Below are positions 379 through 46,809 of a stretch of DNA of 48,769 nucleotides, piece by piece. The position numbers and the translations under genes were made by a program. Each line of letters opens with the position of its first letter. Position 1 is the stretch's first letter. Where the stretch lies: the NCBI GenBank assembly GCA_030595715.1, contig JAUVCN010000006.1:1-48769 (forward strand), in the 5' to 3' direction. Source of the DNA: Thermoplasmatales archaeon. Its GTDB lineage: Archaea > Thermoplasmatota > Penumbrarchaeia > Penumbrarchaeales > Penumbrarchaeaceae. The notes under the pieces are model-generated. The model did no database searches and was not told the origin of the DNA. It worked only from the letters and a program-made list of their open reading frames with translations.

Positions 379-3300
379 TCAATCGTCCGTTCTTATCATT
401 ATTTCCCGACCGCATTCGGGGCATTCACCCTCTTTTGCGGCACAGGCTCGATGGAAGTTTGCTCCGCATCTGCATTTGACCTTTCTCGAAGAGGACCTGA
501 GCGGCCTCAGACAGATATCGCATTTTATCCCGCTTCCACCTTCTCTGGACGAATCTTTACCAATAAGAACATTGTCATCATACGATTCTTCATCGTCCCA
601 ATCCATCTCATCATCGTCATCTTCAACATTTCCTTCCTTCCTCTTCCAGATGAAAACGAACGCTCCTATCCCAACGGCTATCAGAACAAGGATGATGAAT
701 ATGATGAACGGTATCAAAGACCCTTTGTTATCTTCTTCTTTGTCTTCAGGTTCCTCGGCAAGTATGACCATCTGATCCTCGAAGAACAGGTCCCCATCGG
801 TGCAGTTCAATGTGATCTGATGAGACCCCTTTTCCAATACGAGATCGATGCTGTCTCCCGTCCCGGCGGCGACCCCATCCAGAAACCATCCGAAAGTGAT
901 GTTGTCCCCGTCCGGGTCCTCCCCGGATGCAGATAACCGGAAGCTCTCCCCCGCAATAACGGAGCCGTTGTTTCCCCCCGATATCGAAGCCGTAGGGGAC
1001 CTTGTCGCTCTTGTGATGCCCTCCACCTGGGATCGATGACCTGCAAGATCGGTAACCCCGACCTTGATGAGAGTGACGGGCCCATATGTCATATTAATGG
1101 AAAGGAGCGGATCCTTGTCGGGCATTTTCGTCAGGAATGGGGATCCCGGCGTACCGATCAATGAAAATGGTCCTCCATCGATCGAAACCTCGACTGAAAG
1201 GATACCTGAATGTTCATCATGATATCTTAGAGGTATCCTGACCGGAACCTCGGAATAGAACGGTTCAAGGTCCATACTGATAATTGGTGGAAGCGGATCG
1301 ATGATGACCTCTCTACTCTCGGAGGTCCTGTCTGCAGGATAGGGGAACGGGTCCTTGAAAAGGACCTTGATATCGAGGATCCCTTCCGATAAGGGGATGG
1401 TAAAAACTGCTCTCACCATCGATGGAACATACAGGTCCGATCCTTCGATAGGGGTGACGTTCATGAGGACCTCCCTGTAGGAAGGCCCCATTGTTACGGG
1501 GGATCCGGTTCCTCTGATCATCTCGAGCTTCAATGTATCCGGATCGATCCCACGGGGATCCGTTATTATCATTTCAAGGGGATCTTCAGGTTTCAATGCT
1601 ATCGGGGTTTCAACGTTCACTCGTGGGTCATCGTTCTCCAGGTCCACTCTCAGCCTCTTTGACCACGGTCCAGCATTCCCTGCCAGATCGGTCGCTCTTG
1701 CAGAAACATATGAAACTGCAGAGTTGATATGATCAGGCAGGGCAACCATCAATGAGCTTGAAGGTCCACCACTCATCCCATCAACGGATCCTGACCAGGA
1801 ATGTTCAAACCCGTCCTCTACCGGTATCTCGCATCGGATATCGAGTTCATCCGGACCTGTTACAGTATCAAGGTAAGATATCAAGACGCTGTTATTTTCA
1901 ATATCGACATCCACGATGGTACATTCGGGGGATGCCAGATCTACAATGAACGTGTAAGGGCCCAGGTATATGGTGTTTCCAGCCACATCCATTCCCGTGA
2001 TCCACCAGGTATAGGTCCCTTCCGATAGCTCCTGACCTATATCAATGTCAACCGCATCTTCAACTTCACCATATCTCATGTTGAATATCCCCGATGGACC
2101 TTCAAGATGGTAATCCATCTCCTTTGGTCCGCTCAGATCATCGGAAATCCTGATGAAAGGAATGGGCAGCGGATCTGCAATTATCGCTCCATCGGCAGGA
2201 TAGAAGGAGGAGATGTAAGGTGAGGTCCCATCCACATTGATCGTGATGGGATCGGATGATCCGATGTTCCCTACCCTGTCCTCGGCAAATATCCTGATGG
2301 TGTGATCCCCCTCGAAAAGGATCAATGGATCGACAGATCGATACAGGTTCGACCCCAACATTTCAACTCCCATTGAGATGTTGTTCGATGAATGGTCGTT
2401 GACAATGCTTAGGAATAGATCATTGGAAAAACCGCTTCCATGATCCACACATCTCAGGGAGATATTGACCGATGTTGTGGTCCAGCCCTCCGGTGTGATC
2501 TCGGAGACGGTCGGGGGAGTCCCATCGATCCCGACCTTGAAGGACCCAGCATGAACGGGTCCGTTCCCAGCTCTGTCGGATGCTCTGACCCAGAAGGTCT
2601 GATTTCCCTCCTGTGCAGGGAGTTCTGCGGTAACATTGAACATACCATTGCCGGAATCCTCCACTCTGGCCGGATACCATTCGGAATACGGCCCGCCAAC
2701 AGGACCTGTTCTACATTCGACCGATCCCGGATCCAATCCTGATGTGTTGTCCCTGTAAACGACGGTAATATTCGGATCGGATAATGGGTACCATGCCTTT
2801 TCAGGTCCTGAAATGAATACCGGAGATGTTCGATCCAGCATGAAGCTCTGTGGAAGCATCCAGGTGGAAAATAATTGTCCTTGATGGGTCTGTATCGTCC
2901 AGTGGTATCTTCCATCGGATATGCTTTCGATCAGGTTGGTCGATGATCCTGTGCATTCGAACTCCTGAACGATATCGTTGATGTCGGATGAGTTCAGAAG
3001 TCTGAATGAATATGACAATCCCACGGGGGAGAAGAAACCGACATCGATACCGGACCAGGAGAACGGCTCCGACAGGTCGGTGATGGTCGTCCCATCTATC
3101 GGGTGCAAGGGAAAAGGACCTGGACGTGGTGAAAGGAACGACCTTGTACTCTCCCTGAAACCGTAGGCGACCCCTCTACCACCCTCTCCTCCTGCGTATT
3201 CAATGGTCCCTCCGACCTCGCCATGTTTCCCGTTCGTGAGGCCACTCGTGATAGATGAACCTGTATTCTCTATTTTTGTCGTGTATGCCGATGACATGAA

Positions 3301-4809
3301 GAAAGGTGCATGGATCATCACTTTGGTATGTCCGGGAGATGCGACCGTATTGACCATTGTTCCATTTGTTCCGGACGACATGTCATTGAACATGGATACA
3401 GCAGGGGCGCCCCCTCCTCCGGAGTATCCTGCTCCCCCTCCACCACCGCCGTCAATACCGAGGTCAAATGATCCTCCCCCGTTTCCGCCAACTCCCATTC
3501 CATAGACCCATCCGCCCCCTCCGCCGATCTTCATTCCTTTGGACCAGATCGATCTTGAAACATTGATGGATACATGATTATTGCCTCCGGATGCGATACG
3601 GTCCTTGATATCTCCACCATCTCCGCCATCGGTCCTGATAAGAGGTGCATATCCTCCATACCCTCCCGCATATCCAGCACCTCCGCCACCTCCCCTGGTA
3701 TTCGTTGCGGAAGATGGCGACCCCTGAGTGACCGAGATGCATGACCCTCCATTTCCGGATATTCCACCGTCGCCACCCACTCCGGCCATATCCCCTCTTT
3801 CGATATGGAGGTCCATGCAGAGCAGTTCGAAAGATGAATCTCCACCGCATCCGACATTTTCACTTACGGTGCCCGGATCATAAGGTGATCCGTTCTTCCA
3901 TCCACCGGATGTGTATCCTCCTGATGTCGTCGGATGGGTGTAGGATATATCACCATTCCATTGGACCCCGCCTCCATTCCCTGCGTCTCCTCCTATTCCC
4001 CCTATCCCGAAGATCGAGGAATCGGTAATATCCAGCAGGGTGCCCGGTAGATGCAGATCGATGGAGGTACCACCACCTGTTCCTACCCGCCCGGAGACAT
4101 TGGCTCCGGTTGTATATCCTCCTGATCTGAAAAAATCATCCAGCGTCATTACCTCGCCATCTGGTGCGTCCCCTCCGTCTCCACCCCATAGTTCGATATG
4201 ACTTTCCATTATATCGACGTCGGGTACCTCTGTCGAGTTCAATTCGAAAGTGCAGTATCCTCCGGAGAACTGGTATCCTCCAATATCCATATCCAATTCA
4301 GCTCCGGCTGATGGTGGTTCCCATCCATTTCCTCCGTCCAGTATAATTGTGCTGTTGATCATCCGGAACTCTGATCCCACATTCAAAGTAAATGTAACAT
4401 TGGCTCCCTGATTCCTTAAGAGAGAGGAACCATCCCATCCGATCAAATTAAGGGAAGAATTGATCATAACGAATCGATCCGGTGTTCCATGAACGGATGG
4501 TATCAGGTTCCCATCGCCTGTGAGGTTCATATCACAATCCTCAAGGTATAAACTTGAACCATCTCCAAGAAAAGCTGTTCGGTACTCAATGGAACCTGAA
4601 AGATGAAGTTCCTCATCCGAGATGAGGATCAGGTCCCCTTTTGTATTCCCTTTAAGCACAGGCCCCGAGAAGGTTGGGTTCCCGAGGATCTCGAGCGTAT
4701 CATCGGGACCTGTGCTCGTTCCGCCCACGCACAGGGTATAGAACAACCCTGAAATAAGCAGGGTTATTGCTACTCCCATACGCGGCAAATCAGTTTTCAA
4801 CGCACTCAT
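379..4809 (-). CDS. Giant surface protein: Gly-rich region, Ig-like modules, one TM span, cytosolic RING-like zinc domain
   Basis: The protein is about 1,476 residues from this start. Seen in order: a signal peptide; a beta-rich, N-x-S/T-rich segment; a very Gly-rich segment (about 345 residues) with GGDGGD-type runs; several Ig-like modules with TPP and DRAGN signatures (for example SDRAGNG and TDLAGNAGP); a PKD-like module with a SGEDPDGDNITFGW core; a single membrane helix (LIPFIIFIILVLIAVGIGAF); an acidic linker; and a C-terminal CxxC-x12-CxC-x4-HxxxC-x6-CxxC zinc-ligand pattern. Topology therefore puts the zinc domain in the cytoplasm. A longer ORF begins at 4824, but TTTATAAA at 4830-4837 is only about 25 nt from the ATG at 4809, which fits a leaderless transcript starting there. 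Likely an adhesin or S-layer-associated protein; the role of the zinc domain is unknown. Confidence 0.9.
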   Translation of the reverse strand: MSALKTDLPRMGVAITLLISGLFYTLCVGGTSTGPDDTLEILGNPTFSGPVLKGNTKGDLILISDEELHLSGSIEYRTAFLGDGSSLYLEDCDMNLTGDGNLIPSVHGTPDRFVMINSSLNLIGWDGSSLLRNQGANVTFTLNVGSEFRMINSTIILDGGNGWEPPSAGAELDMDIGGYQFSGGYCTFELNSTEVPDVDIMESHIELWGGDGGDAPDGEVMTLDDFFRSGGYTTGANVSGRVGTGGGTSIDLHLPGTLLDITDSSIFGIGGIGGDAGNGGGVQWNGDISYTHPTTSGGYTSGGWKNGSPYDPGTVSENVGCGGDSSFELLCMDLHIERGDMAGVGGDGGISGNGGSCISVTQGSPSSATNTRGGGGGAGYAGGYGGYAPLIRTDGGDGGDIKDRIASGGNNHVSINVSRSIWSKGMKIGGGGGWVYGMGVGGNGGGSFDLGIDGGGGGGAGYSGGGGAPAVSMFNDMSSGTNGTMVNTVASPGHTKVMIHAPFFMSSAYTTKIENTGSSITSGLTNGKHGEVGGTIEYAGGEGGRGVAYGFRESTRSFLSPRPGPFPLHPIDGTTITDLSEPFSWSGIDVGFFSPVGLSYSFRLLNSSDINDIVQEFECTGSSTNLIESISDGRYHWTIQTHQGQLFSTWMLPQSFMLDRTSPVFISGPEKAWYPLSDPNITVVYRDNTSGLDPGSVECRTGPVGGPYSEWYPARVEDSGNGMFNVTAELPAQEGNQTFWVRASDRAGNGPVHAGSFKVGIDGTPPTVSEITPEGWTTTSVNISLRCVDHGSGFSNDLFLSIVNDHSSNNISMGVEMLGSNLYRSVDPLILFEGDHTIRIFAEDRVGNIGSSDPITINVDGTSPYISSFYPADGAIIADPLPIPFIRISDDLSGPKEMDYHLEGPSGIFNMRYGEVEDAVDIDIGQELSEGTYTWWITGMDVAGNTIYLGPYTFIVDLASPECTIVDVDIENNSVLISYLDTVTGPDELDIRCEIPVEDGFEHSWSGSVDGMSGGPSSSLMVALPDHINSAVSYVSARATDLAGNAGPWSKRLRVDLENDDPRVNVETPIALKPEDPLEMIITDPRGIDPDTLKLEMIRGTGSPVTMGPSYREVLMNVTPIEGSDLYVPSMVRAVFTIPLSEGILDIKVLFKDPFPYPADRTSESREVIIDPLPPIISMDLEPFYSEVPVRIPLRYHDEHSGILSVEVSIDGGPFSLIGTPGSPFLTKMPDKDPLLSINMTYGPVTLIKVGVTDLAGHRSQVEGITRATRSPTASISGGNNGSVIAGESFRLSASGEDPDGDNITFGWFLDGVAAGTGDSIDLVLEKGSHQITLNCTDGDLFFEDQMVILAEEPEDKEEDNKGSLIPFIIFIILVLIAVGIGAFVFIWKRKEGNVEDDDDEMDWDDEESYDDNVLIGKDSSREGGSGIKCDICLRPLRSSSRKVKCRCGANFHRACAAKEGECPECGREIMIRTDD

Positions 4810-16658: not shown

Positions 16659-18209
16659 TCAGTCCGCGTCCTTTGCCTCGACATCCATCCCTTTTCCATC
16701 TCTGGTCGTCACCACGTTCCTGATCAATTTGGTGACGTCCACTCCCGTGAGGGATTCAACAAGGGCAGGCATCTGTGCAGCAATATCAACGGTCTTGCTG
16801 ACAAATCCGTTGGGGCCCTGGTCACCCATGACGATGACCTTGTCAACACCCTCCAGCGAGGATGCAGCAGACTTGACGATCTCGGGCAGCTTGTCGACGA
16901 TGAGCTGTGTGATGGCTGCGTCGCCATACTTTCTCCATGCGGCTGCTTTCTTCTCCATTGCCTCTGCTTCTGCAAGACCTTTGGCTTTTATCGCATCTGC
17001 CTCGGCGTTACCCTTGAGCCTAATGATCTCGGCCTCGGCAGTTCCTTCCTGCCTGATCTTGGCCGCCTGTCCCTCGGCTAGTTTCTCCAGCTTCTCCTTC
17101 TCACCGTCGGCTGTGAGTTTGAGCTGGCTCTGGGTTGCCTCTGCGTTCAGGATGGTCCTGATCTTCTCGGCCTCTGCGATCTTTTCGATCTTGCCTTTTT
17201 CTCCATTGGCCTCCGCGATCTTGGCGTCAGCAGCAGCTTTTGCCGGGACGACCTGGATAGCTTCTTGCTCCTTGGCCTTCCTTATTATCTCCCTCTCCTG
17301 GAGTTCGATACGCTTCTGCTTTTCCTCGATCTCGATCTGGATCTGTTCCTTCACGAGCTCCTGCCTTCTCTTCTTGTCCTGCAGGTCAAAGGCGATAGAC
17401 CTGTTGGCCTTGGAGATCTCGACCTCTGCCTCGGCATTCTCCCTGGTGATGTCCCTCTCCTTGTGGAAGATGGCCACCTGTCCTTCTGCCTCCGCATTTG
17501 CCCTTTCAGCTTCTCTGGCCGCTCCAGCCTCCTTGACGGTGGCTTCCTTGTTGGCAATAGCTTCGCCTATCCTTGCATCTCTTTTGACCTCTGCTGTCCT
17601 TCTCTTACCAAGGGCCGTGATGTAACCGAATTGGTCCTCGATATCCCTTATAACGAAGGATCTGATCTCGATACCCATGTTCCTCAGGTCCTTTGCCGCC
17701 TGCGACTGGATCGCTGTTGCCACGGCATCCCTGTCGGAGTTGATGGCCTCGATGGTCATCGTGGCACATATCCCTCTGACGTGGCCCTCGAGGGTCTTCT
17801 GGGCAATATCATTGATCTCTCTATCCGTCTTGTGGAGCAGCTGCTCCGCAGCGGTATAAAGCGATGCCTCGTCGGATGCGATCTTCACCTGGGTCACGGC
17901 CTTGGTGTTCATCTGGGCACCGGAGGTCTTGACATCGGTGACGATGTCGGTAACAGTTATCTCCAGGGTCCTTACATCAAGAGGGAGGTAGTCATATCCC
18001 TGAAGGACAGGGACAATGAACTTCCCACCTCCTGATACGACCGAGTAACCTCTCGATCCCCTTTTCACACCTTTACCGTATACGACCATTGCTTTGTCCG
18101 GTGGTACTCTCTTGTACCTGCTCGCATAGATCAGAACTACGAAGAGACCAATTGCAAATAGCCCCCCTATTATCAGGCCAACGATCGTCAACCCACTCAA
18201 TAGATCCAT
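16659..18209 (-). CDS. Flotillin-like SPFH-domain membrane scaffold
   Basis: The protein has 516 residues. An N-terminal membrane segment (IVGLIIGGLFAIGLFVVLIY, about 9-28) is followed by an SPFH/PHB domain (VPPDKAMVVYGKGVKRG up to about residue 215), then a long coiled-coil rich in EA/AE dipeptides (about 215-430, with GEAIANKEATVKEAG and repeated AEAE runs), and a C-terminal region (YGDAAITQLIVDKLPEIVKS). This is the flotillin/FloT architecture: oligomers anchored in the membrane that organise protein-rich microdomains. The start is supported by GAGGTGAG upstream. The NfeD-like gene precedes it by 26 nt, the classical partner arrangement. No frameshift or missing segment is seen. Confidence 0.92.
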   Translation of the reverse strand: MDLLSGLTIVGLIIGGLFAIGLFVVLIYASRYKRVPPDKAMVVYGKGVKRGSRGYSVVSGGGKFIVPVLQGYDYLPLDVRTLEITVTDIVTDVKTSGAQMNTKAVTQVKIASDEASLYTAAEQLLHKTDREINDIAQKTLEGHVRGICATMTIEAINSDRDAVATAIQSQAAKDLRNMGIEIRSFVIRDIEDQFGYITALGKRRTAEVKRDARIGEAIANKEATVKEAGAAREAERANAEAEGQVAIFHKERDITRENAEAEVEISKANRSIAFDLQDKKRRQELVKEQIQIEIEEKQKRIELQEREIIRKAKEQEAIQVVPAKAAADAKIAEANGEKGKIEKIAEAEKIRTILNAEATQSQLKLTADGEKEKLEKLAEGQAAKIRQEGTAEAEIIRLKGNAEADAIKAKGLAEAEAMEKKAAAWRKYGDAAITQLIVDKLPEIVKSAASSLEGVDKVIVMGDQGPNGFVSKTVDIAAQMPALVESLTGVDVTKLIRNVVTTRDGKGMDVEAKDAD

Positions 18210-42147: not shown

Positions 42148-45100
42148 CTATCGATCGCCGAAGTGGTTCAACATCCTGTCATGGACCTCTTTTTTCTCCG
42201 GATCAAGAAGGATCGATTTGGCTGCATTTATCTCCCTCATCTTCTCTTCATGGTCCAGGACCTTATTCGAATGAAGGTTCCTGTCCGGATGATATCTTGA
42301 TGCTAGGGACCTGTAAGCTTTCTTGATCTCGGGTTCCCTGGCATTCTTCTTCACTTCAAGGATATCATAGCAGTTGATCCCTTTCGGTGAGCGGGAGATC
42401 CCGAATCCTGACATTATCTCCTTCATGGTATTGTAATCACTATGATCGAGGCCTTTCTTCTTCCTGATCGTGATAACACCAATTATTGATGCTATTATCA
42501 AGATCACTGTTGCAATGACCATGATCATTATGATGGATAGCCGAACTTCAACATCTTCCTTGGCCAATGTAATATTTCCAATATCGTTTTTCTCTCCGTT
42601 GGTAAGTATAAATTGCTTTTCTATCCTTTCATAACCTTTTTTTGATACGACAAGTGTTGCCAAACCTTCTTCACCCGTTATCGAGAACCTTCCATCAAGA
42701 TCACTTCGAGTTGAATGGGTATCAATGAAAACATCAGCATTTTCTATGGGCTTTCCTTTATTATCTATCAACCGGCCCATAATAATTCCTTGTCCTATCG
42801 TACTGAATGAAAAATCAGGTTTAAGAAGAAAATTTCCTGCCAGGTCCGTGGCAAGAACTTCTACTTTATAGGTCGTGGACCGCTCCCAGTCAACATTTGA
42901 CCTTATAAACAGTCTGTTTCCATCCATGTCAAATGAAATGGGAATATTATTCACTGTGATATCGTCAACCAATACTTCCTCCGAAAAAATGATCTCGATG
43001 TCGGCATCAAGTTCAACATCAGAACCGTTGGGATCGATATATTGCATGAAAGGTTTTGTCGTGTCCACCATGATATTTATCTTTTCTTCAACAAGGTTTC
43101 CTGCCATGTCCATTCCACGAAAATGTAGAAGATGAGGTCCCTCTTCCAGGTGCTTGACATATGGTGAAGATAGGATAAATGATAGTTCCCCCTCATCAAT
43201 TCTGATATCCATAAAATCCATCGGACTACCTGTTCCATCTGCATACCAGTTGGTTTCCATCATATTCCGATTGAAGTAGATCCCATCCTCTATGTCGATC
43301 TCCAGGATAGGGATCTTGGAATCCTTGATCAAGGTGATGGGTCTTGTACCTTCATTTCCAGCAAGATCTATTACCGATACTATGAATGAATATTCGCCAT
43401 CGATGGCTAATTCGCATCTGAAATTCGTGTCAGTAATAACATCAGTTCTACCTGAGTATTCGATATGGAACTCATTTACCAGGCCGGATAATGAATCCTC
43501 TGCCATCCAGGATATGTCAAATATGCCTGAAGAAGAATATATGATCCCAGTTTGATCAAATTCAATGATCGGAGCTGTCCTATCAATGGTGAAACGAACT
43601 TCTTCGGTTGAGGTCATCCCAAGAGAGTTTACAGCTGTCAATTTGATCATATGATGGCCTTCATCTAGATACTCAAGTGATATCATCGTATCATTCAGGT
43701 TCAGATCGATCGGTTCTGAACCATCGATGGATATTGTGGTCGAGACAATATCAGACTCCATTTCCTTTATTTTCCAGGAGAGGTAGGGATCGATTCGTTT
43801 GATATACTCTCGATCTTCCGGTTTAAAAATGGTAATAATGGGGGCAGTTGAATCAGGGACCCCTTTTACCGGAAGTGATAACAGACCCTCTCCCAGATCA
43901 TTATATGCCGAGACAATGAAACTGTACATCGCCCCATCTTCAAGATCCGGGACGATCGTTCCATTCATGTCATCCAGTGTATATGCCAACAAATGTGCCC
44001 CTCTGTTCGCGCTGATATAGAGCTTGTATCCTTTGATGGCTCCCCCATATATCATCTCAGGTTCGTTCCAGTATAAGGTTACTTTTTGAGGTCCAGGTTC
44101 GATGGAAGTGATCTCTGGAGTTTTAAAAGTTGGAATGGGGGTTCTGACAAGAGGATACTTGTCAGAGATCCCAATTCCATGGAAAAGATATCTGTGATCT
44201 ACAATCCCATCAAAATCCCTGTCGGGAGTTGTGTATTCACCGTAATGATTTCCCTTTTGACCGGTGACATATACATTGAGATTGGAATCTTCCTTTATCT
44301 GGGCAGTTTCCGGATCGTAGGATCCTCCCTTCGCTCCATTGTTATTGATGAACGCATTCCAGAAGATGTTGAGGTTCCTGTTTGTCGATGAACTCTCGAT
44401 CGCATGACCTTCACATTTGGTTACTATGTTGTTGGTGATCACTCCATTGGAACATCTTGAAAAGGATAAACCGATTGAGCATTCTGTGAAATTATTTCCA
44501 TAAAGGTTGAGATCGGAGGAATCGTCAACATAGATCCCGATTCCACATTCGATCATTGCCGAGTCCTTGATGGTCAAGTTATCATCACGATACGAGTAGA
44601 TCCCGTAACTCAGATCTTCAAAGATCTGATCCTCCACTGTTAGATCCGATGAAGATCTGGTGTATACTCCTGATTCAGTGTTATGTATTGTATTCTCTCT
44701 GATCATTACATCGGAACAATAGCGTAAATAAAAGGCCCAATCCCCTTCAAATATCTCGTTGCCTTCAATGACAATATTATCACAATGATACACATCAAAG
44801 GGTCGAACAAAACGTGTTACTCCAATTTTATTATCAAGTATCTGCAGACCTTGGCAATAATCCAACTCAATATTACGAGAAAATTTATTATTTTCTATCG
44901 TCGTGTTAACATTATGATATAAAAAGAGATCATCATATTCATTATTTTTGAATTCACAATCTCGTATGGTTACGTTTCTTGATCTAATGATATAATGTCC
45001 ATTTTCCGAGTTGTTGTGGGCTGAAGATCCAGTAATTGTTAGATCGTCACAATCCCATGCATGGAGGCCGTTATTCCCATCACCAGAACCGGCGATCTCA

Positions 45101-46671
45101 ACATTTTTTAATATAATATTTTTACATTTGATCATTGGAAGACCCGATTCATTATTGAAGAACCAATCCTCAAGCGTGATATTCGTACAATTTACAAAGA
45201 AATATTGAGACCCTTCAGGGATCGGGCCGTGTTCGAGGTCCTTTCCGTTGAAGTATTGGATGGGTTTGCCGTTGAGTGTGTTATTCGTAGGTATGGTCTG
45301 TTCGATAATACCCAGATAATCCCGATAATCCGCGTAGTAACTGCCAATTTCCAAATGGAATCCATCACCTATCAGCCTGTTATTGTAATATGAGTTGAAA
45401 TAGGACCTCTTATCTGAATTGATCGTCCAGATGGATGGTAATGATCTGAACTCAGAATCAATAAATATATTCTGAATAGATTGATAAAGTGACATGGCTT
45501 CTGAACTCTCACTTTCAAAACTACAGTTGACAAATCTCAATTCATTACTATTTTCAATTGATACAGCTATCTCTTTTTCGGAATGTATCTTGCTTGAGAA
45601 AAAATCGCATTCTTCTGTCCTATCTATGTAGACAGTGGGCTGATCATAACTGGATGATATATTGACATTCCAGAATTGGAGATGTGATGATAACCGAAGG
45701 CGAAGGCCTCGGTTGGCTCCGGGCATTTCAATTAGTCTGAAAAAACCATTTTTCACTTCATTGCAATATATACCCCCATCAGAATATCCATTCTTCCCAG
45801 AAGTTACATTCTCGATGATCAGACCATCAATATCATCAAGATAAATATCATCATATTCAGTCCCGGAAAATGAAGCATTCTTAATGATCAGATCATCTGT
45901 GTCACTTATGGTGATACTGTGATATTCATTATCAATGAAAGTCACACCATTGATCGTGAGATCATCATTCCCATCTACACGAATGGATCTGTAGCATTTA
46001 TTGAAAACACAGTTGGATACTTCCACGTACTGGCTGTCATATATTATCAATCCATCGTGTGATAAAAAAGTACAGTTGTTGATATCAAATCTTTTCACAT
46101 TGTCCATATATATTCCATCATCTTCATTTTCAAAGAAACAACCATCTATGCTTATGTCATGATTTGAAAATGTAAGTGCAGATATTCCATCCACAGTGGA
46201 GAAATTGCATTCAAGGACCTCGATATCTTTGACATTGTTCATATAGATGCCAAAATCCCCTTCTTCAAATGAAATATTCCTGATAGTAATATTCGAAGAA
46301 TTAAGGAGGTAAAGACAATAATCCGTATAATATAATCTTGAGGTGTTGTATAGATGACCATTGCGAAAAATGATGTGTGAGCTCACATTTCCTATGAAAA
46401 GTCCGAAAGTTGATCCTTCCGCATCTATCTCAATATCTTTGATCATGTATGGATTTAATACTGTTCCATTTCCATCCCATCCCTCATCATCGATCAGATC
46501 TTCAAGGTCTGTCTCGTTGTTCAGGATTATTGGATCATAAGAGGTCAAGGTCCCACCGGGTGAATGGTCATTTGACCCATTCACCTCACTGGCATCAAGG
46601 TCAAAAGATTGAAACTGGAGAACGGCCATTGAAAAAATGATCATCGTTGCGATGGCGATATTTTTCCTCAT
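42148..46671 (-). CDS. Giant surface protein: parallel beta-helix, FN3/Ig modules, TM span and cytosolic J-domain
   Basis: About 1,507 residues. After a signal peptide (MRKNIAIATMIIFSMAVLQF) comes a long right-handed beta-helix of NosD/PbH1 type (about 70-830; units such as NNSNITIRNISFEEGDFGIY), an FN3 module, three Ig-like modules (WMAEDSLSG, DLAGN), a Big_5 module, a carboxypeptidase-regulatory-like module (GRLIDNKGKPIENADVFIDT), one membrane helix (IIMIMVIATVILIIASIIGV) and, in the cytosol, a 77-residue J-domain (NCYDILEVKKNAREPEIKKA, then ASRYHPDRN with intact HPD). J-domains stimulate Hsp70 ATPase. The frame stays open to 46776, but the signal peptide begins at ATG 46671. An extracellular beta-helix joined to a J-domain is very unusual. 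Confidence 0.9.
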   Translation of the reverse strand: MRKNIAIATMIIFSMAVLQFQSFDLDASEVNGSNDHSPGGTLTSYDPIILNNETDLEDLIDDEGWDGNGTVLNPYMIKDIEIDAEGSTFGLFIGNVSSHIIFRNGHLYNTSRLYYTDYCLYLLNSSNITIRNISFEEGDFGIYMNNVKDIEVLECNFSTVDGISALTFSNHDISIDGCFFENEDDGIYMDNVKRFDINNCTFLSHDGLIIYDSQYVEVSNCVFNKCYRSIRVDGNDDLTINGVTFIDNEYHSITISDTDDLIIKNASFSGTEYDDIYLDDIDGLIIENVTSGKNGYSDGGIYCNEVKNGFFRLIEMPGANRGLRLRLSSHLQFWNVNISSSYDQPTVYIDRTEECDFFSSKIHSEKEIAVSIENSNELRFVNCSFESESSEAMSLYQSIQNIFIDSEFRSLPSIWTINSDKRSYFNSYYNNRLIGDGFHLEIGSYYADYRDYLGIIEQTIPTNNTLNGKPIQYFNGKDLEHGPIPEGSQYFFVNCTNITLEDWFFNNESGLPMIKCKNIILKNVEIAGSGDGNNGLHAWDCDDLTITGSSAHNNSENGHYIIRSRNVTIRDCEFKNNEYDDLFLYHNVNTTIENNKFSRNIELDYCQGLQILDNKIGVTRFVRPFDVYHCDNIVIEGNEIFEGDWAFYLRYCSDVMIRENTIHNTESGVYTRSSSDLTVEDQIFEDLSYGIYSYRDDNLTIKDSAMIECGIGIYVDDSSDLNLYGNNFTECSIGLSFSRCSNGVITNNIVTKCEGHAIESSSTNRNLNIFWNAFINNNGAKGGSYDPETAQIKEDSNLNVYVTGQKGNHYGEYTTPDRDFDGIVDHRYLFHGIGISDKYPLVRTPIPTFKTPEITSIEPGPQKVTLYWNEPEMIYGGAIKGYKLYISANRGAHLLAYTLDDMNGTIVPDLEDGAMYSFIVSAYNDLGEGLLSLPVKGVPDSTAPIITIFKPEDREYIKRIDPYLSWKIKEMESDIVSTTISIDGSEPIDLNLNDTMISLEYLDEGHHMIKLTAVNSLGMTSTEEVRFTIDRTAPIIEFDQTGIIYSSSGIFDISWMAEDSLSGLVNEFHIEYSGRTDVITDTNFRCELAIDGEYSFIVSVIDLAGNEGTRPITLIKDSKIPILEIDIEDGIYFNRNMMETNWYADGTGSPMDFMDIRIDEGELSFILSSPYVKHLEEGPHLLHFRGMDMAGNLVEEKINIMVDTTKPFMQYIDPNGSDVELDADIEIIFSEEVLVDDITVNNIPISFDMDGNRLFIRSNVDWERSTTYKVEVLATDLAGNFLLKPDFSFSTIGQGIIMGRLIDNKGKPIENADVFIDTHSTRSDLDGRFSITGEEGLATLVVSKKGYERIEKQFILTNGEKNDIGNITLAKEDVEVRLSIIMIMVIATVILIIASIIGVITIRKKKGLDHSDYNTMKEIMSGFGISRSPKGINCYDILEVKKNAREPEIKKAYRSLASRYHPDRNLHSNKVLDHEEKMREINAAKSILLDPEKKEVHDRMLNHFGDR

Positions 46672-46756
46672 CTTACCCCTGAAGGTATTCTTGCACAGGT
46701 ATTTGACCCTATCTCCATGATATCCTTGATAGTAATGTATAGATTTACAGAACAAC

Positions 46757-46766
46757 CTTTTAAAAG
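46757..46766. promoter_or_regulatory. Palindromic TATA candidate shared by two divergent surface genes
   Basis: CTTTTAAAAG is a perfect palindrome in the 138-bp divergent spacer. Read to the right it puts transcription near 46786, 24 nt before the ATG at 46810; read to the left, near 46736, about 65 nt before the beta-helix gene. One element might drive both genes. Confidence 0.4.
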
Positions 46767-46809
46767 ACAAGTTCATTGCATTTCAAGGACCTGAAAATGG
46801 GGTGTAATC

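Follow-up and report, generated by a model that had tools for sequence, protein, structure and literature searches.

A predicted RING-type tail on a giant archaeal surface protein and its relatives in ubiquitin-like gene clusters of Thermoplasmatota

Introduction

Is the cluster of zinc ligands that ends a giant archaeal surface protein a RING finger, and does it act in a ubiquitin-like system in its own organism? RING-type domains in our own cells hand ubiquitin to target proteins. The gene that raises the question lies on a stretch of 48,769 nucleotides from a Thermoplasmatales archaeon (assembly GCA_030595715.1, contig JAUVCN010000006.1), hereafter the window. A first-pass annotation of the window had proposed a domain of the prokaryotic RING type in the tail of this protein, and a protein-control theme shared with J-domain and GIDE proteins encoded in the same window.

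Complete RING-bearing archaeal ubiquitin systems are described mainly from Caldiarchaeum/Aigarchaeota and Asgard (PMC5654768, PMC6043591). Ub-E1-E2 operons are also mentioned for other prokaryotic JAMM groups, in a work that names RINGs only for Caldiarchaeum/Aigarchaeota and Asgard (PMC6043591), and one marine group II euryarchaeote was noted with RINGs (PMC4327156). In the open-licence literature on RING/ubiquitin systems in Thermoplasmat(ot)a, Methanomassiliicoccales and Euryarchaeota, from which the 2011 survey of prokaryotic RINGs is missing, no description of a phylum-wide membrane-anchored RING family was found.

Results

The surface protein carried an ectodomain with Ig-like repeats (Pfam Big_13, E 1.5e-10, in three stretches, with weaker matches to Big_3_3, DUF7743 and SpaA_4), a single membrane span and a short tail (Table 1). 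Apart from the signal-like stretch at the N-terminus, the hydropathy scan revealed no other span in the protein. As the single span is followed by WKRK and the protein starts with a signal-like stretch, the positive-inside rule would place the tail on the cytosolic side. The family to which the window belongs (f1) comprised eight genomes, all fragmented drafts (69 to 96% complete). The RING gene was found in five of them, the other three being 69 to 79% complete; four further family members thus held an orthologue of the surface protein, three of them at full length (1,441 to 1,470 aa).

Table 1. Features of the RING-tailed surface protein gene and other genes of the window
Feature	Position	Strand	Basis
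RING-tailed surface protein gene, 1,481 aa	379..4824	(-)	ORF list
N-terminal signal-peptide-like hydrophobic stretch, residues 16-34	4723..4779	(-)	hydropathy scan
Gly-rich ectodomain region, about residues 212-600 (limits approximate)	3025..4191	(-)	translation
Ig-like repeat region, about residues 640-1340 (limits approximate)	805..2907	(-)	Pfam
Single C-terminal membrane span, residues 1374-1392, then WKRK	649..705	(-)	mean hydropathy 3.31 over 19 residues
Acidic cytosolic linker (predicted side), about residues 1397-1430, poorly conserved	535..636	(-)	sequence
RING-type C4HC3 zinc domain (predicted), residues 1432-1477	394..531	(-)	Pfam, PDB profile, AF2/Foldseek, alignments
Flotillin/SPFH protein	16659-18209	(-)	
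GIDE-domain protein, 252 aa	41388-42146	(+)	Pfam E 7e-10
J-domain surface protein, 1,542 aa, beta-helix/fn3/Ig	42148-46776	(-)	DnaJ E 4.9e-18

Translation of the open reading frame confirmed the eight potential zinc ligands that had been placed at positions 409-522, past the span (C1435, C1438, C1451, C1453, H1458, C1461, C1468 and C1471, from nucleotide 522 down to 412), but corrected the third pair, given as HxxxC, to HxxC. Within the last 50 residues the ligands followed the C4HC3 pattern CxxC-x12-CxC-x4-HxxC-x6-CxxC. They were the only Cys and His residues beyond residue 1400, and residues 1-1400 held just 12 Cys. The motif is, on this evidence, more than a chance arrangement, since the DNA pattern for its second half had 0.00 expected matches in shuffled windows against one in the window, and since every ligand was invariant in homologues. 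The eight ligands, together with the Gly that follows the fourth, did not vary in 16 relatives or in an alignment of 58. Six ligands were already fixed in the pattern that gathered the 58, so the 16, which came from plain similarity, test the conservation more fairly. Judged by identical columns among the four full-length orthologues, the RING tail is the best conserved segment of the surface protein within the family (44%, compared with 20% for the ectodomain and 9% for span plus linker). Its nearest RINGs were those of the sister family f2 (two genomes), with 51 to 54% identity over the tail.

The best Pfam match of the tail was Prok-RING_1 (PF14446), with an E-value of 2.6e-6 over nearly the whole domain; its score of 27.7 bits for the tail and 21.6 for the whole protein fell below the cut-off of 29.1, and the domain is not a Pfam member. 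zf-RING_2 also matched the tail (5e-5). A profile of 16 relatives searched against the PDB, ignoring multi-zinc-finger proteins that scored through short repeated pieces, was led by RNF24 (1e-5), Arkadia, AMFR and RNF165, with ZNRF3 among the matches, while PHD (Pygo, MTF2) and C1 (RAF) chains ranked lower. The tail was modelled with AF2 without metal (mean pLDDT 79.2, pTM 0.58). With few exceptions, the Foldseek neighbours of this model in the PDB were RING E3s (probability 0.97-1.00, best E 2.4e-3), with TRAF6, RNF125, Arkadia and TRIM21 on top, RNF13 among the others and one PHD at rank 40. The C4HC3 order is also the one given for prokaryotic RINGs in a review (PMC11354881, section 3.8). 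Together with the conserved ligands, these matches bear out the proposed RING/treble-clef domain of prokaryotic type; neither of the outcomes that the first-pass annotation had named as speaking against it, unconserved ligands or a best match to an unrelated zinc ribbon or LIM fold, was seen. We conclude with moderate structural confidence that the tail is a RING finger, which would bind two zincs in a cross-brace.

To map the domain among prokaryotes, the degenerate pattern CxCGxx[FY]HxxCx6CxxCG was scanned at the DNA level over 84,980 genomes, where 107 stretches matched. Going by record titles, all but four came from Thermoplasmat(ot)a, from Methanomassiliicoccales and their kin, or from euryarchaeotes not further specified; L118, labelled only 'archaeon', is counted with these. 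The four others came from an Acidobacteria bin (L060), Calditenuis, Caldarchaeum and one thaumarchaeote. L060 encoded a multi-span RING protein much like that of a euryarchaeote (L069) and is possibly mis-binned. The other three encoded CBS-domain proteins whose zinc tail looks related; these CBS-pair proteins of Caldarchaeum-type archaea (L034, L131, L136), whose C-terminal zinc domain resembles the RING half-motif, lay outside any ubiquitin operon and were set aside as support. Weak tail matches at L002 and L026-L028 were false positives from adenylate-kinase lid zinc sites.

Several RING-type domains stood in other arrangements. One 1,987-aa frame held three in tandem (L014, G010:C136:57972-58514), in a genome with about 17 such domains (G010), and another domain was joined to what by eye appeared to be a DnaA-like ATPase (L016, G011:C6). 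At L033, L043, L074, L084, L100, L105, L108 and L128, a common RING lay about 243 residues before the C-terminus.

Membrane anchoring was frequent among the relatives. Among the E2-bearing genomes, 28 had just one RING match, and in 23 of these a span lay at most 130 residues before the RING. Anchored types encompassed RING-ended surface proteins (f2, f6, f30), three-span proteins (f10, f20) and short TM-RING-ribbon proteins (the Methanomassiliicoccales type f19, and f31); exceptions included giant RING proteins adjoining E2 in G043 and G048, in which no span was detected. Proteins of f6 and f30 shared the architecture of the window protein, and its sequence similarity to some anchored relatives reached back from the RING across the span into the last ectodomain region. 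As judged from the pattern scan and predicted spans, the domain represents a Thermoplasmatota-wide family of mostly membrane-anchored RINGs.

Of 145 Thermoplasmatota genomes, 39 encoded UBC-type E2 proteins that passed the Pfam cut-off, against none of 14 controls. These E2s were confirmed by a lineage E2 profile and kept the HPN motif and the Cys. Small ORFs upstream of the E2s ended at or near an invariant Gly-Gly, one of them with weak YukD/ubiquitin similarity. RING and E2 occurred together in 34 of the 145 genomes, RING only in 11, E2 only in five and neither in 95 (Fisher p 2e-18, a value inflated by the relatedness of the genomes); the RING-only genomes probably include some non-RINGs, the matches in G111, G112 and G115 being weak or without RING hallmarks. 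Collapsed to families, the counts were 13 with both, five with RING only and one with E2 only.

Gene order displayed the same association. At L152, an Ig/PKD surface protein with a RING at its end was followed on the same strand by a ThiF-type E1, a 3,155-aa RING-ended protein, a Ubl, an E2 and a JAB carrying the JAMM motif. The RING also adjoined E2 in G027, G043, G048 and G031, and a single ORF (L161:5941-11031) combined a NosD/beta-helix surface protein with span, a RING and a JAMM-type JAB, ligase-like and deubiquitinase-like domains thereby sharing one membrane tail. Ubl, E2 and E1 were clustered in the sister family f2. In the two f2 genomes the E2-E1 cluster and the RING gene were on different contigs, hence the closest relatives display co-presence, not adjacency. 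In G012, a genome without RING match, an apparent Ubl (ending ...PKGG) was fused before E2 (L159:6172-6858). On the grounds of RING-E2 co-occurrence, E1-RING-Ubl-E2-JAB operons and the RING-JAB fusion, the domain family is tied by genomic context to E2-dependent conjugation, and its RINGs are very probably the E3 component of a Ubl-E1-E2-JAB system in the majority of lineages.

The family of the window differed from these relatives. E2 was absent from all eight of its genomes with both Pfam PF00179 and the lineage E2 profile, which scored down to 1e-82 elsewhere in the phylum, and the cognate Ubl was absent from all eight with the Ubl profile. In five of the eight genomes, tblastn for an f2-like E2 gave nothing beyond noise, and no Prok-E2_B was found in the same five. 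No Caldiarchaeum-type ubiquitin operon was found in the genome of the window. A search of this genome for Ubl, E1 and E2 genes, suggested as a check by the first-pass annotation, thus turned up no E2 or cognate Ubl. Its only ThiF, with ThiS, was rejected as an E1/Ubl pair, as it adjoins an aldehyde ferredoxin oxidoreductase in the manner expected for cofactor sulphur transfer. Its JAB was likewise rejected as a Ubl-operon member: it lies at the end of a protein of 544 aa that weakly resembles TPR (L163:4471-6105, C117; C-terminal Prok-JAB). Long JAB ORFs of this kind occurred in most genomes of the family and in G008. The ubiquitin-like context initially envisaged holds for the domain family in related genomes and fails for the genome of the window.

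In known RINGs, Ile, Val or Leu before the second Cys and Pro after the seventh ligand are E2 contact points. Among 102 relatives, the former was found in 88 and the latter in 72, and all five f1 RINGs kept Ile and Pro at these positions. Another E2-less branch (G042, G071) was without the Pro. In f1 and f2 the last Cys is followed by Gly and then Arg (CGR), not immediately by a basic linchpin residue.

The J-domain and GIDE proteins of the window are both genuine by Pfam. The J-domain, with intact HPD, formed the cytosolic tail after a membrane span, making this protein the second giant surface protein in the window with a functional cytosolic tail. The GIDE protein was hydrophobic at both ends, without a RING, and its gene lay tail-to-tail with the J-domain gene. 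About 40 kb separate these genes from the RING gene, and no evidence beyond presence in the same window links them to it; the proposed common theme was not retained.

Discussion

E3 function of the RING tail is unsupported in this organism. In relatives, as genomic context and RING hallmarks suggest, a membrane-tethered RING would bring E2~Ubl to the inner membrane face and steer tagging to that site, and the JAB would undo it. The family of the window appears to have lost E2 and the cognate Ubl and kept the RING tail, and since the tail is retained where these partners are absent, it most likely works without E2 here. Our preferred reading, held with a little more confidence than doubt, is that of an orphaned RING, E3-linked in relatives and serving in this organism as a zinc-stabilised docking tail that would couple the large ectodomain to a cytosolic partner independently of E2. 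That each of the five f1 sequences retains the E2-contact Ile and Pro counts against it, being odd if no E2 is bound; the two residues may be structural.

An active E3 in this organism, whose E2 and Ubl were missed as too divergent or lie in assembly gaps, is the best of the alternatives and still fairly unlikely. It would account for the contact residues and for the Arg two places after the last Cys, it fits the Ubl-E2-E1 cluster in f2, whose RINGs are nearest, and all genomes of the family are drafts. Against it stand the negative profile searches for E2 and Ubl in all eight genomes, the tblastn and Prok-E2_B results in five, and the setting of the sole ThiF/ThiS pair.

Slightly less likely again, in our view, is a binuclear treble clef of another kind (PHD-, C1- or FYVE-like) that never belonged to a ubiquitin system and would bind peptide, lipid or zinc at the membrane. 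The C4HC3 order with C-x4-H-x2-C spacing is common to PHD fingers such as those of Pygopus and MTF2, PHD and C1 chains do appear in the structural comparisons, and the tails of the Caldarchaeum-type CBS proteins look related away from ubiquitin operons. These chains were nevertheless weaker than RING E3s in both searches, the window domain has CPxC and not the Trp found before the seventh ligand in the PHD C-terminus, and the context of its relatives, which co-occur with E2 and sit in E1-E2-JAB operons, points to E2. A plain zinc-ribbon pair merely stabilising the tail is highly improbable: a zinc-ribbon tail (CSLCGSEF...CPLCGE) does end another large protein of the family (L031), but a ribbon would show neither the fixed CxC-x4-HxxC spacing nor the FH signature nor a predicted fold of RING type.

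An orphaned RING of this kind can be set beside known systems. With Prok-RING_1 it shares the ligand order and a match over nearly the whole domain, and it differs by a score under the gathering threshold and by its place at the extreme C-terminus of a giant single-pass surface protein. Like srfp of Caldiarchaeum subterraneum (PMC5654768), it is an archaeal RING with an E1/E2/JAMM context, in relatives only for the window protein. Mutations of srfp I30, W58 and linchpin R69 harmed ubiquitylation, I30Q abolishing the Caldiarchaeum reaction (PMC5654768), and we take I30 as the counterpart of the Ile in the first ligand pair of the window domain. However, srfp is a small RING-H2 (C3H2C3) protein of a Ub-E1-E2 operon, whereas the window domain is C4HC3 and tethered to the membrane in a 1,481-aa protein; Gly, then Arg, follows its last Cys, W58 lacks an evident counterpart in it, and its genome yielded no E2. 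Eukaryotic single-pass RING E3s (RNF13/PA-TM-RING, ZNRF3) display the same succession of ectodomain, one span and cytosolic RING, but they are RING-H2 and not C4HC3, the window ectodomain is Ig-like/Gly-rich, and no homology was seen outside the RING.

Prokaryotic RINGs and archaeal ubiquitin operons were already known; what appears to be new, not having been found in the open-licence literature, is a phylum-wide and mostly membrane-anchored RING family in Thermoplasmatota. We tentatively suggest, giving the idea somewhat less than even credence, that the E3s of a Thermoplasmatota ubiquitin-like cascade are mainly the cytosolic tails of surface proteins, anchored in the membrane and often single-pass, which in a receptor-like manner would couple events outside the cell to tagging inside, the family of the window having lost Ubl and E2 and kept the RING for another use. 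The window protein would then be a natural experiment, a RING kept where E2 and Ubl were not found. More widely, the data point to a second large archaeal phylum, including the gut-dwelling Methanomassiliicoccales, with Ubl, E1, E2, JAB and lineage-specific RINGs placed at the membrane. Should the RINGs act together with these E2s, E3 ligases of the membrane-receptor kind would not be confined to eukaryotes.
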